Positions 3,327-64,000 of a stretch of DNA of 64,000 bases are shown here, one piece after another. Within the stretch, counting starts at the first letter, position 1; every line of letters starts with the position of its first letter. The stretch is from Pseudomonas yamanorum (lineage in GTDB: Bacteria; Pseudomonadota; Gammaproteobacteria; Pseudomonadales; Pseudomonadaceae). The notes below the pieces were generated by a model. That model saw only the letters and a list, made by a program, of their open reading frames with translations, did not search any database and had not been told where the DNA came from. Made by a program: the position numbers and the translations under genes. Location of the stretch: positions 496,001-560,000 of the forward strand of contig NZ_LT629793.1 of the NCBI RefSeq assembly GCF_900105735.1, read 5' to 3'.

Positions 3327-4207
3327 AGGAAATCCGTCAGGGCCGAGCCCAACCCATCGAACACCACGGCGATGCGCGGGACCTTGCGCATGTCCTGGTG
3401 CATGGCGATCCACACGTCAACCTTGAAATCCACCTGCGCGGGCAACACCCGCACCAGCCCGTGACGTTGTGCCACCTGGGCTGAACACACGCCGATCCCC
3501 AGCCCCGCACGCAACGCGGCCAACTGCGCGAGGTGATCGTCGGTGCGAATCACCGTACTGGGCGCCGAACAGTCGAAACCGCGCTCACCCAGAAATTCGA
3601 TCTCCAGCAAGTTGCGGTCCGGCCCGATCAGCGGGTAGCAGTGCAATTGCGCAACGGTGTCCGGCGTGCCCTGCTCTGCCAGCAATTCTGGCGCGGCGTA
3701 CAACCCGACTTGCAGGTCGCCGACCTTGCGCGCGACCACGGTGGATTCGACCGGGCGACGGATGCGTACGGCGACGTCGGCCTCTTGCCGGGCAAGCGCC
3801 TGCAGTCGATTGGATACGCTCAGCTCGATGGCCAATTGCGGATGATCACGGCGCAGGCTGCGCAACATTGGCGGCAGCACTTCAACGCCCAGCAGCTTGC
3901 CGCTGGTGAGCCGCACCGTGCCGCCGGCGAGCGCCGTGTCGGCCGAGGCTGCGCGGTTAAAGGCGTTGGCCGCAACGGCCATCGCTTCAACATGGCTGAT
4001 CAGGTCCTTGGCCGTGTCGGTGGGCAATAGCCCGGCGGGTGAGCGGATAAACAGGCTGACCCCGACGCTCTGCTCCAGCGCCTCGATCCGTCGCCGCGCG
4101 GTGGCCTGGGCGATCCCCAGCAAACGGGCTGCGCCCGACAGGCTGCCGGTGCGCAGCACGGCGAGGAAGGCGCGCTGGGTTTCCCATTGGAGTTGCGGGG
4201 CGTTCAT
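3314..4207 (-). CDS. LysR family transcriptional regulator
   Basis: 297 residues with an N-terminal HTH (GAARLLGIAQATARRRIEAL) and a LysR substrate-binding domain. Its coding end overlaps the convergent LysR gene by 13 bases. It is divergent from the GFA-family gene at 4325, which is a possible target. No effector can be read from the sequence. Confidence 0.94.
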   Translation of the reverse strand: MNAPQLQWETQRAFLAVLRTGSLSGAARLLGIAQATARRRIEALEQSVGVSLFIRSPAGLLPTDTAKDLISHVEAMAVAANAFNRAASADTALAGGTVRLTSGKLLGVEVLPPMLRSLRRDHPQLAIELSVSNRLQALARQEADVAVRIRRPVESTVVARKVGDLQVGLYAAPELLAEQGTPDTVAQLHCYPLIGPDRNLLEIEFLGERGFDCSAPSTVIRTDDHLAQLAALRAGLGIGVCSAQVAQRHGLVRVLPAQVDFKVDVWIAMHQDMRKVPRIAVVFDGLGSALTDFLQPR

Positions 4208-61661: not shown

Positions 61662-62888
61662 ATGCCAAGCGCAAGCCGGGCCCCTAGCGGCCTCCCCGAA
61701 CATAATCAACAAACCGTCCTGCAGCAGTGGCTGGCGATTCTCTCGGTTGCCGTGGGCGCCTTCGCCCTGGTCACCAGCGAATTCCTGCCAGTAGGCGTAC
61801 TCAACGACGTCGCCGCCGACCTCGGCATCAGCGCCGGCCACGCCGGCCTGATGGTCACCCTGCCCGGCATCATGGCCGCCCTCGCCGCCCCGCTGCTGTC
61901 GGTGGGCATTGGCGCCATGGACCGTCGCTACCTGCTGATCGGCCTGACCCTGATCATGATCATCGCCAACATGGTGGTGGCCTACGCCAGCGACTTCAGC
62001 CTGCTGCTGTTCGGCCGCGTATTGCTGGGCATCAGCATCGGCGGCTTCTGGGCCACGGCCATCGCCCTCAGCGGCCGCCTGGCGCCCAAGGGCGTGGGCG
62101 TAGCGAAAGCCACCTCGATCATCATGATGGGCGTGACCCTGGCCACCGTCCTCGGCGTGCCCGTCGGCACCTGGCTGAGCGGCCTGATGGGCTGGCGCAT
62201 GACCTTCCTCGTCACCGCGCTGGTGGGCATCCCGGTACTGCTGGCGCAGATGTTCCTGCTGCCGCGCCTCGAACCGGAAAAAGCCATCCGCATCGCCGAC
62301 CTGCCGGCCCTGTTCATCAACCCACAAGCCCGGGTCGGCTTGATCGCCGTGCTGCTGATCGGCCTGGCGCACTTTGCCGCGTACACCTACGTCGCCCCGT
62401 TCTTCAAAAACAGCTCCGGCTTCGACGGCCCGACCATTGGCTCGCTGCTGCTGCTCTACGGCGTGGCCGGCGTAATGGGCAACGTCTTCGCCGGCTTCGC
62501 CGCCAACCGCAGCGTGCGCCACACCTTGTTGCTGGTGGCCCTGATGATCGGCACCAGCACCGCCCTGTTCCCCTACTTCGCCACCGGCATGAGCGGCGCC
62601 GTGATGCTGATCGCACTGTGGGGCTTCGCCTTCGGCGCCTTCCCGGCCTGCGCAAGCATCTGGATGTTCGTGGTGGCGCCCAAGGATGTTGAACGTGGCA
62701 TGCCGCTGTTCGTGGCGTTGTTCCAGGTGATCATTGCCGTGGGCTCGTTCTTTGGCGGGCAGATCGTCGACAAGATGGGGACGTCGGTGCTGTTGAGTTT
62801 GGCGACTGCGTTGGTGGGCGCTGGGTTTGTGACGGTGCTGGTGTTGGGGCGCAAGGTGAGTAATAGCCTGGCGGCTCAGCCTGCCTGA
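61662..62888 (+). CDS. MFS transporter, DHA1 family (AraJ/NepI/YdhP-like)
   Basis: 408 residues with 12 spans. AFALVTSEFLPVGVLNDVAADL in span 1 and LSVGIGAMDRRYLL in the first loop are typical of the sugar/nucleoside exporter branch. No strong ribosome site precedes the ATG. Substrate unknown. Followed by a 10-base-stem hairpin. Confidence 0.92.
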   Translation: MPSASRAPSGLPEHNQQTVLQQWLAILSVAVGAFALVTSEFLPVGVLNDVAADLGISAGHAGLMVTLPGIMAALAAPLLSVGIGAMDRRYLLIGLTLIMIIANMVVAYASDFSLLLFGRVLLGISIGGFWATAIALSGRLAPKGVGVAKATSIIMMGVTLATVLGVPVGTWLSGLMGWRMTFLVTALVGIPVLLAQMFLLPRLEPEKAIRIADLPALFINPQARVGLIAVLLIGLAHFAAYTYVAPFFKNSSGFDGPTIGSLLLLYGVAGVMGNVFAGFAANRSVRHTLLLVALMIGTSTALFPYFATGMSGAVMLIALWGFAFGAFPACASIWMFVVAPKDVERGMPLFVALFQVIIAVGSFFGGQIVDKMGTSVLLSLATALVGAGFVTVLVLGRKVSNSLAAQPA

Positions 62889-62897
62889 GAAAGGAAA

Positions 62898-62923
62898 ACG
62901 GGACTGATTGATTTCAGTCCCGT
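62898..62923 (-). terminator. Hairpin after MFS gene
   Basis: ACGGGACTGA (62898-62907), loop TTGATT, TCAGTCCCGT (62914-62923). The T-run lies on the minus-strand side (TTTTCC), so it would stop minus-strand transcripts best; on the plus strand it is a hairpin without a tail. Confidence 0.5.
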
Positions 62924-63020
62924 GGCTTGAGGCAGTGAGCACGGCGCCTTGCTCCATTGCCTACAGTTGCGTCAGAATCCGCCGGCTTGTGCACCTGGGT
63001 GGGCGTCTCTAAGGTTGCTC

Positions 63021-63056
63021 GGTCGCTGAAAACTCAGTGATCGGGTTTAGTAGCCC
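63021..63056 (+). promoter_or_regulatory. Two abutting RNA hairpins ahead of the C4-like RNA
   Basis: GGTCGCTGA (63021-63029) pairs with TCAGTGATC (63034-63042) with two G-U pairs. It is followed at once by GGG-TTTAGTAG-CCC (63043-63056). The loop TTTAGTAG is repeated in the hairpin at 63201-63216 and is complementary to CTACTAA at 63172-63178. Confidence 0.5.
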
Positions 63057-63116
63057 TAGATTATCCGAGCAATGTGCATGAGCTTCATCAATCAGACTTC
63101 TCTGTCTGTGCTTGAT

Positions 63117-63197
63117 GGTGGCTGTGCGCAGGGCGCCTTCGGGCGCGCCGGTCTTTGTTTGGATTCCCGGTCTACTAACCTGTGCACAGCTGCCACC
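63117..63197 (+). ncRNA. C4-antisense-RNA-like structured element
   Basis: A closing stem pairs GGTGGC-TGTGC (63117-63127) with GCACA-gct-GCCACC (63184-63197, 3-base bulge). Inside are a UUCG-capped hairpin GCGCC/GGCGC (63133-63146), a hairpin CCGG/CCGG (63148-63170) whose loop holds TGTTTGGATTC, and unpaired CTACTAA (63172-63178). The loop segment is an exact 11-base complement of 63237-63247, the bases just before the DUF6124 ATG, and CTACTAA matches TTAGTAG at 63206-63212. Order and layout equal those of phage C4 RNAs with segments a' and b'. Confidence 0.65.
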
Positions 63198-63200
63198 CCA

Positions 63201-63247
63201 TTCGTTTAGTAGCGAGAAGGTGGCGGCCCACATAGAGAATCCAAACA
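63201..63247 (+). promoter_or_regulatory. Target region for the C4-like RNA over the DUF6124 ribosome site
   Basis: A small hairpin TTCG-TTTAGTAG-CGAG (63201-63216) shows the b-type target in its loop. GAATCCAAACA (63237-63247) is the a-type target directly before the ATG. No strong Shine-Dalgarno is seen (AGAGAA near 63234), so pairing here should block initiation. Confidence 0.6.
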
Positions 63248-63577
63248 ATGTTCAAGGTAACGCCGAATCCTCCGGGAACTCCCGATTTGAAACTCAACCA
63301 AGCCGCGCACCGTGCCTTGGATCACTATCTCAATCCCTCCTCCGCCAAAACCGCCCCGCCGTCGGGTGCGTTGTTCAGTGTGGCAGCTGATGCCAGCAGT
63401 GAGAGCCTGATTACCAATAGCTATGAAACGTTCGCCTCGATCAGCGCGTTGCTGCTTGATCTGTCGGAAGATATGAGCGGGAAAGACCGTGATGTGGCGT
63501 TGGCGATTCACCAACTGAGTGAGTTGGGGGTGCTGTTGATGGGGAAACTGATGGATCGGGAGATTCCTTGTAGCTAG
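63248..63577 (+). CDS. DUF6124 family protein
   Basis: 109 residues starting MFKVTPNPPGTPD, the N-terminus of a Pseudomonas-restricted family usually found in several copies per genome. It has a central Ala/Ser-rich part and a helical C-terminal half (ALAIHQLSELGVLLMGKLMD). Function unknown. The leader carries the C4-like RNA, which points to tight translational control. Confidence 0.85.
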   Translation: MFKVTPNPPGTPDLKLNQAAHRALDHYLNPSSAKTAPPSGALFSVAADASSESLITNSYETFASISALLLDLSEDMSGKDRDVALAIHQLSELGVLLMGKLMDREIPCS

Positions 63578-64000
63578 AGACGGTCGTCTACGCCATTCAG
63601 ATCACGGAATCGATCAGTCGCCGGTGAGTTGCGCGAATGTGCAACGACTCGGCGACGTTGACTGTCGAGCCTTTACTTTCGGCTAACGGTTTCAGCCATT
63701 AAGTGCCATTTGGCTTTGGTCATAAGGTGCTAATCGCTGTCGACAAAACAGGGCCGACTCAGGCGATGCTCAAACTTTCACTACCTAGAGCCATCGAAGG
63801 TACGAGGTCGACTTCCCCTTTGTTCACTAGATTGGATAGCCTACTCATACGAACTGGCTGGGTCAGGGTTAGCATCAACGACCATTCAAAAATTCGAAAG
63901 ATGTTTGAAGACTTCCGCTTCGACCGGTTCGATATTAGCTTCATAACACCAATCATCGGAGCGTGAAGGAGTAATCGACGAGAAGCTAGTCATTACCAGT
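63578..64000. other. No clear gene to the window end
   Basis: Two frames of 65-87 codons overlap each other on opposite strands (63703-63966 plus, 63759-63956 minus). The plus frame needs a GTG start, neither has a ribosome site, and neither resembles a family I know. A gene may begin beyond the window. Confidence 0.3.

Follow-up and report, generated by a model that had tools for sequence, protein, structure and literature searches.

A C4-type antisense RNA and its target sites precede a DUF6124 gene in Pseudomonas yamanorum: a probable regulatory cassette of the phage P1 kind

The question raised by this locus is whether a small-protein gene on the chromosome of Pseudomonas yamanorum is likely to be governed by the antisense RNA that precedes it, which is of a type known from phages P1 and P7, and if so by what route. 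In the window, by which is meant the whole stretch of 64,000 nucleotides that was analysed, an MFS transporter gene is followed by a C4 antisense RNA and then by a gene of the DUF6124 family. The c4 antisense RNA and the c4-a1b1 motif were both listed by Weinberg 2010 (PMC2864571), and processing of the P1/P7 C4 by RNase P to an RNA of ~77 nt is reported in PMC5320573. We consider it probable that the locus is a regulatory unit complete in itself, like c4-icd of P1, in which C4 would block translation of its own DUF6124 message. The features on which the argument depends are listed here; their naming follows P1, with a for the C4-proximal and b for the RBS-proximal site.

62941..63010, plus strand: upstream edge of the cassette, a promoter region of ~70 bases that recurs in this genome and related ones (DNA search; alignment of the 16 loci of this genome).
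62987..62992, plus strand: putative -35 box TTGTGC (CTTGtGC consensus across the 16 C4 loci of this genome, not invariant).
63010..63015, plus strand: putative -10 box TAAGGT, 17 bases past the -35 box (consensus CTA across the same 16 loci).
63009..63061, plus strand: leader of c4-a1b1 type (RF03163), below threshold (38.4 bits, cut-off 46.7).
63046..63053, plus strand: a1 site TTTAGTAG, complementary to the 7-nt C4 junction segment (-8.0 kcal/mol; cognate above permuted, 0/20,000).
63063..63072, plus strand: b1 site, complementary to the C4 loop in 10 pairs, G-U pairs included (-11.8 kcal/mol; cognate above permuted, 0/20,000).
63111..63200, plus strand: C4 antisense RNA (RF01695, 76.7 bits; stem covariation across the 16 loci of this genome).
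63152..63166, plus strand: b', the P3 loop of C4, whose complement lies in the start region, 63156-63166 being the part that matches b2.
63172..63178, plus strand: a' segment CTACTAA of C4, at the junction of P3 and the closing stem.
63206..63212, plus strand: a2 target TTAGTAG, 7/7 complementary to a' (-6.5 kcal/mol).
63237..63247, plus strand: b2 target GAATCCAAACA, which reaches to the ATG and overlaps AGAGA, a weak Shine-Dalgarno-like sequence, 11/11 complementary to b' (-16.4 kcal/mol).
63248..63577, plus strand: DUF6124 gene, 109 aa (PF19619, 81 bits, cut-off 27; structure model pLDDT 83.0).

The segment 63111-63200 is a C4 antisense RNA: it matches RF01695 on the plus strand at 76.7 bits against a cut-off of 45, over model positions 1-87 of 87, and this is the sole Rfam 15 match above the gathering score that cmscan returned across the whole window. 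An earlier note, made from the sequence letters, had described a C4-like antisense RNA folded into a three-way junction and had proposed an Rfam scan as a check; the match confirms the assignment, and its full-length span confirms the junction. The UUCG hairpin and the second hairpin described there correspond to 63133-63146 and 63147-63171. A closing stem is present as well, but not the bulged one of 11 bases that had been drawn, since the 90 nt folded in isolation are closed, at their energy minimum of -48.9 kcal/mol, by 17 unbulged pairs, 63116-63132 with 63179-63195. Covariation of the stems, which had also been suggested as a check, was found among the 16 C4s of the genome: pairing holds in 95.4% of cells, both partners change in 11 of 27 pairs, and the 35 double-change cells compare with 9.9 in shuffles and were matched in 0 of 500 of them.

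The loop of this RNA at 63156-63166 is complementary to the bases before the DUF6124 start codon (63237-63247) at 11 of 11 positions, as the earlier note had claimed, or at 12 if the A of the ATG is counted, and 12 complementary bases were attained by 0 of 20,000 shuffles of the target stretch; the second contact that it proposed, CTACTAA at 63172-63178 with TTAGTAG at 63206-63212, holds at 7 of 7 positions. Its account of the targets was right for a2 and b2 but missed their upstream copies at 63046-63053 and 63063-63072. These a1 and b1 sites co-vary with C4 although the c4-a1b1 score of the window leader lies below the gathering score; c4-a1b1 matches stand upstream of 15 of the 16 C4 loci of the genome, where 3 of its 16 such matches attain the cut-off. 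When 62800-64000 was scanned at a lowered threshold, two leader models appeared upstream of C4, c4-a1b1 and isrK (RF01394, 63022-63088, 23.8 bits, cut-off 50), both below their gathering scores. Further upstream, a DNA query of 62300-63010 showed that, besides the MFS gene, it is mostly query bases ~641-711 that recur, often immediately 5' of C4 loci, and the consensus boxes point to a promoter at 62987-63015. The MFS gene is kept at 84-87% without the promoter stretch after it in 7 of the 38 genomes searched, and since no right flank is in common, no clean empty insertion site can be defined.

Whether such complementarity is specific to each locus was assessed by comparing cognate with permuted pairings within five genomes, namely that of P. 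yamanorum (16 loci), G010 (35, after one partial sub-threshold match among 36 C4 matches was left out), G131 (24), G057 (22) and G139 (15). All four contacts surpassed the permutations in all five genomes (0/20,000 each) in this test, which leaves shared ancestry in. In P. yamanorum the cognate and permuted means were -12.0 and -7.0 kcal/mol for b'-b2, -11.5 and -7.1 for b'-b1, -7.9 and -4.2 for a'-a2, and -9.8 and -6.8 for a'-a1. The contacts covary likewise in 77 distinct loci from named records, which were retained from 82 C4 matches after the removal of duplicates and cut ends and carry 40 distinct loops; a further 49 miscellaneous loci carry 30. The complementary segments of homologous leaders therefore covary, as the earlier note had asked to be checked. 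Insulation between the cassettes of one genome is imperfect: in P. yamanorum 13 of 16 RNAs pair best with their own RBS, and 7 of 16 RBSs pair best with their own RNA, which suggests cassettes that are largely, not perfectly, insulated from each other.

These results bear on two rival explanations. That the complementarity is due to chance, or that the locus is a functionless prophage remnant, is extremely improbable, being contradicted by the Rfam score, the stem covariation and the pairing tests, and also by the orthologues L211 and L212 considered below, in which the frame is open and cognate pairing exceeds mixed pairing. What speaks for decay is the state of three of the five DUF6124 matches of the genome that are without a C4: L033 is a partial match with an internal stop, and L025 and L032 have no in-frame ATG (only ATG starts were considered; L032 retains a c4-a1b1 leader match of 35.9 bits). 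The other two, L019 (97 aa) and L027 (120 aa), are open frames from an ATG. It is also very unlikely that chromosomal C4s mainly regulate unlinked genes in trans, with DUF6124 as a passenger. The model for this reading is provided by the Group 1 sRNAs of A. baumannii, which resemble the present set in that many C4-type RNAs occur in one bacterial genome, and for which PMC5320573 proposes retargeting to bacterial transcripts. The targets proposed there are phage or unlinked bacterial transcripts, whereas here each tested C4 matches its own start region, the loops fitting the start regions downstream of them far better than permuted ones in all five genomes. DUF6124 is moreover linked to C4 at 78 of 79 loci in named Pseudomonas records (the exception is L266), a proportion which is not a genus-wide rate because these loci were picked by similarity to the window protein.

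The closest known counterpart is the c4-icd-ant region of P1. In both, the order is promoter, a1, b1, C4, a2, b2 and small frame, the P1 arrangement that the earlier note had proposed, and each closing stem ends 53 nt ahead of the ATG (3418 to 3471 in the P1 record L431, 63195 to 63248 in the window). The contact energies are also comparable, at -15.1 kcal/mol in P1 and -16.4 in the window for b'-b2, -8.4 and -6.5 for a'-a2, -11.6 and -11.8 for b'-b1, and -9.3 and -8.0 for a'-a1; and a model built from the 16 C4s of this genome (R1) finds the P1 C4 at 53.0 bits. The annotated P1 record lists C4 as a separate RNA whose binding at a2/b2 represses icd-ant translation. Because the anatomy of the window locus is that of P1, C4 should here cover the DUF6124 start region. 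The two systems differ in the target, which is icd and ant in P1 and DUF6124 in the window; in number, there being 16 C4 loci in this genome; in the part that varies, which is the RBS-pairing loop b' here, whereas PMC5320573 reports a' to be variable among its RNAs and P1/P7; and in the fold of the whole leader, which keeps C4 in P1 but not in the window (63021-63260).

This last difference counts against a simple copy of P1, and it keeps under consideration a second reading, in which the leader acts only in cis, the same pairings within one mRNA switching it between closed and open forms with no trans-acting C4. When 63021-63260 is folded whole, none of the 17 pairs of the C4 closing stem is formed at the energy minimum, b' pairs with b2 in cis and the start site is closed, at -103.3 kcal/mol compared to -94.6 kcal/mol when the C4 fold is imposed; a single transcript presumably carries both C4 and its targets; and the IsrK RNA of Gifsy-1 is described in PMC4825925 as belonging to its own inactive mRNA. 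The outcome of such folds varies with the stretch chosen, those of ~240 nt being rough and a real transcript folding during its synthesis. With a shorter stretch, which takes in 100 nt upstream and 65 nt downstream, 54 of 112 leaders from the five genomes retain the C4 stem (6 of 16 in P. yamanorum), cis pairing of loop and RBS replaces it in just 3, and 55, the window locus among them, refold otherwise, without such pairing at that locus. The C4 core is in addition conserved as a compact domain with covarying stems, its counterpart in P1 is annotated as a separate RNA, and a cis switch needs no second, upstream copy of the targets. We therefore regard control in cis alone as unlikely.

A third reading places the control in the transcription of the leader, as for CI of P4 or IsrK of Gifsy-1: termination would depend on the pairing of C4 with a1/b1, and the short leader RNA would act as an activator. 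The isrK-orf45-anrP region of Gifsy-1 and the CI/seqA region of P4 share with the present loci a leader RNA, a complementary RNA downstream and a translationally controlled small frame, and P4 SeqA is a structural homologue of IsrK (PMC4825925). Many relatives of the window locus also have a terminator after the leader: terminator-like T-run hairpins lie between leader and C4 in 25 of the 49 miscellaneous loci (0.2 expected from shuffles), in 2 of 16 loci in P. yamanorum (0.0), and in 4 of 35 (1.0), 3 of 24 (0.2), 3 of 22 (0.2) and 1 of 15 (0.0) in the other four genomes. The weak isrK match at 63022-63088 points in the same direction. The window locus itself, however, is below the isrK cut-off and is not one of the 2 loci of its genome with a terminator, and the strongest contact of its C4 is with the start region, so that this reading is doubtful for it; given the lack of a leader terminator, translational control is the likelier main step.

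In the P1-like reading, which we prefer, one promoter would give rise to a transcript that carries a1/b1, C4, a2/b2 and the DUF6124 frame in that order, and C4 would be excised from it, as RNase P does in P1. The excised C4 would pair through b' and a' with the b2 and a2 sites on its own message or on a sister message and cover the start region, turning DUF6124 translation off, while in an uncut transcript the start site could be closed in cis by the C4 loop. The a1/b1 copies further up may compete for C4 or provide a point of transcriptional control. With a b'/b pair of its own, each cassette would be largely insulated from the many others in the genome, and the DUF6124 product would most likely be a small modulator of growth or of the phage cycle that is wanted only once C4 is gone. 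The structure model, the covariation, the specificity, the linkage and the occurrence on viral contigs are shown by the analysis; the promoter, the processing of C4, repression in trans and any role of the protein are inferred, the silencing of DUF6124 from what is known of P1.

The arrangement is not confined to the window. The proposal that a chromosomal DUF6124 gene stands under a C4-type leader was borne out, but it overlooked that there are 16 C4 loci in the genome, and cassettes on viral contigs besides. The P. yamanorum genome (7.09 Mb) has 16 C4 matches, all above the cut-off, 17 DUF6124 matches, 16 of them above the cut-off, and 4 DUF3077 matches. Judged by position, C4 is followed by a DUF6124 gene at 12 of the 16 loci, by a DUF3077 gene at one and by an 89-aa frame at two (one was scanned and has no Pfam family above the cut-off); the last lacks a frame of at least 35 aa where one is expected, and a 178-aa frame lies beyond. 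Among 149 genomes of the genus, C4 occurs in 138 (137 above the cut-off) and DUF6124 in 120 (119 above the cut-off), with both in 120, C4 alone in 18, DUF6124 alone in none and neither in 11; the C4 of one genome with both (G037) is a sub-threshold match with an E of 1.4e-4. Seven of the 149 genomes have at least 38 DUF6124 matches each, and the numbers of C4 and DUF6124 per genome are correlated at a Spearman coefficient of 0.87, which is a rough value because relatedness is ignored and because the highest counts are lower bounds (at least 27 C4 and at least 38 DUF6124). In a sample of 276 genomes of the class, DUF6124 was found in one, that of P. yamanorum itself, and C4 in 20, this one included. 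When the best DUF6124 locus per genome was taken from 29 genomes, 20 had a C4 and 9 had none within reach. The plasmids searched gave no DUF6124 match. In a genome of another family (G379, contig C9, 1700-3092), four C4 matches lie in a row, a few hundred bases apart.

C4 also precedes genes of other families. After the removal of identical stretches, 81 and 94 matches gave 161 distinct C4 loci, for each of which the longest ATG frame beginning 36-75 nt past C4, or else the longest frame, was taken as the gene. One single-linkage cluster, which comprises DUF6124, DUF3077 and an 80-aa family, accounts for 104 of the frames; 13 others are of 52-57 aa, 8 of 88-94 aa and 6 are Bro-N-like (172-175 aa; one member of this cluster was scanned, at 41.2 bits), and the remainder consists of 13 single cases and 17 loci without a frame of at least 35 aa. 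By the same rule, the 112 C4 loci of the five genomes divide into 48 that are DUF6124-like, 20 of the 80-aa family, 6 others with a PxPP start, 27 other frames and 11 without a frame of at least 35 aa just downstream. The Bro-N anti-repressor-like genes lie directly 3' of C4 (L071, L072, L075, L078), near to the c4-ant logic of P1 without icd. The proteins of 52-57 aa follow C4 at 13 loci of other genomes (L057, L069, L076, L079 and others; one was scanned and has no Pfam family), and a similar frame is present in L293, from a genome of another family. Outside the genus, 19 C4 loci (one misplaced) are followed by small proteins and by frames that resemble Ant, Rha or Bro-N by eye.

A link to phages rests mainly on IMG/VR contigs, which are taken to include predicted prophages with possible host flanks, since named phage records gave little. 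On these contigs C4 is found at 32 of 36 DUF3077 loci and, 100-220 nt upstream, at 49 of 55 relatives of DUF6124; one of the remaining six runs into the contig end, and for five the closest C4 is ~620-680 nt upstream. In one contig (L346) the cassette lies amid frames that resemble tail genes by eye. Among 50,697 named phage records, DUF6124 matched one, at the end of the record of Pseudomonas phage DVM-2008 beside prtR, and the DUF3077 protein of the P. yamanorum genome (L003) matched none. C4 is also carried by phage phiAH14b, which is a satellite according to PMC4936722.

Rapid change of the specificity sites is seen in L211 and L212, syntenic orthologues of the window locus with the same MFS gene upstream. 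Between L211 and the window locus, identity is 98% in the MFS gene DNA, 100% in the promoter, 95% and 88% in the 5' and 3' sides of C4, 100% in the a2 region, 72% in the spacer, 100% in codons 1-9 and 92-94% in codons 10-109, compared to 56% in the loop and 35% in b2. L212 shows 71% in the loop, 47% in b2, 61% in the spacer and 86-87% in the frame after codon 9. The loop-RBS duplex of L211 is worth -8.8 kcal/mol and the two mixed pairs with the window locus -5.6 and -4.5 kcal/mol; that of L212 is worth -15.8 kcal/mol, the window loop on the L212 RBS -14.9 and the reverse combination -7.5. In 22 close pairs of loci (each used once, some from one genome), loop identity is at least 0.93 in 11 and at most 0.71 in the other 11, a bimodal change that looks like the exchange of blocks; in 4 of the 11 pairs with a replaced loop, backbone identity is low as well, at 0.72-0.83, as would be expected if the leader had been exchanged as a whole. 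At a backbone identity of 70-80%, loop identity is 0.53 (0.51 when shuffled). Positive selection on the loop was considered and is not established, because a control stretch is also poorly conserved (0.60).

These patterns invite the idea that Pseudomonas C4 cassettes are exchangeable RNA immunity groups, which would silence incoming phages or cassettes with the same b/a sites; a new cassette would then survive only if its specificity were novel, and specificities would be swapped as blocks. The near-random identity of paralogue loops, the even split of the close pairs, and the presence of cassettes on viral contigs, one of them amid tail-like genes, speak for it. On the other side, shared loops are not clearly rarer between loci of one genome than between loci of different genomes, the control stretch diverges similarly, and the L212 RBS fits the window loop. 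The idea is accordingly offered as a tentative one, and we think it unlikely to be right.

Listings of open-licence PubMed Central papers showed none that links C4 with DUF6124, and one paper that names DUF6124 or DUF3077. The novelty lies in a set of C4 switches on small proteins that extends across the genus and is for the most part self-matched. A widespread family, DUF6124, thereby gains a likely regulator, and C4 passes from a curiosity of phage immunity to a system of the chromosome in which every cell has many distinct pairs of antisense and target, which provides natural material for the study of RNA specificity and possibly a record of phage-host conflict.

The role of the DUF6124 protein can be approached only indirectly. 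Structure models of it and of the 80-aa family show a two-helix hairpin that is predicted with confidence and an N-terminus that is not (mean pLDDT 83.0 and 83.5); Foldseek gave no match at E up to 0.001 in PDB or BFVD, VIA-align returned generic helical hairpins, Rop included, and a PDB sequence search gave one match (E 0.21). A resemblance to Rop or to the encapsulated-ferritin fold was not clearly set apart from that to unrelated structures. The window protein had no match in an NCBIfam scan, and none of four scanned proteins, the window protein included, matched defence-system models. The suggestion of the earlier note that DUF6124 may be a relative of anti-repressors (Ant, Bro-N) was not upheld, Pfam giving DUF6124 only and PHROGs nothing for the window protein. 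Relationship to P1 Icd was also considered, and no sequence relation was found by hhalign (A5 against a single Icd sequence: probability 0.1, E 0.81), one sequence being a weak test. The P1 gene in the place of DUF6124, icd, inhibits FtsZ (PMC11897509), which is a lead only for the role of DUF6124. In furfural-evolved P. putida, a one-base insertion was found in a DUF3077 pseudogene, from which, its authors say, a normal protein results (PMC9630843).

A harmful product is the other possibility that had been raised. The fact that L019 and L027 are open without a C4 speaks against strong toxicity. Type I toxin-antitoxin modules consist of a small protein and an antisense RNA, as the present cassettes do; they differ in that C4 is on the same strand and presumed transcript as its target, and in that open DUF6124 copies exist without it.

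Three observations concern the surroundings of these genes. L027 (genome 5814292-5817474) adjoins a PrrF sRNA (RF00444, 163.3 bits). The frame downstream of the DUF6124 gene of the window, 64085-65245, has no Pfam family. Beyond the window end, at 65613-67534 in window coordinates (L290), the minus strand has two frames side by side, of 273 and 366 aa, downstream of the cassette; the second looks DUF262-like by eye, which would suit a defence locus.
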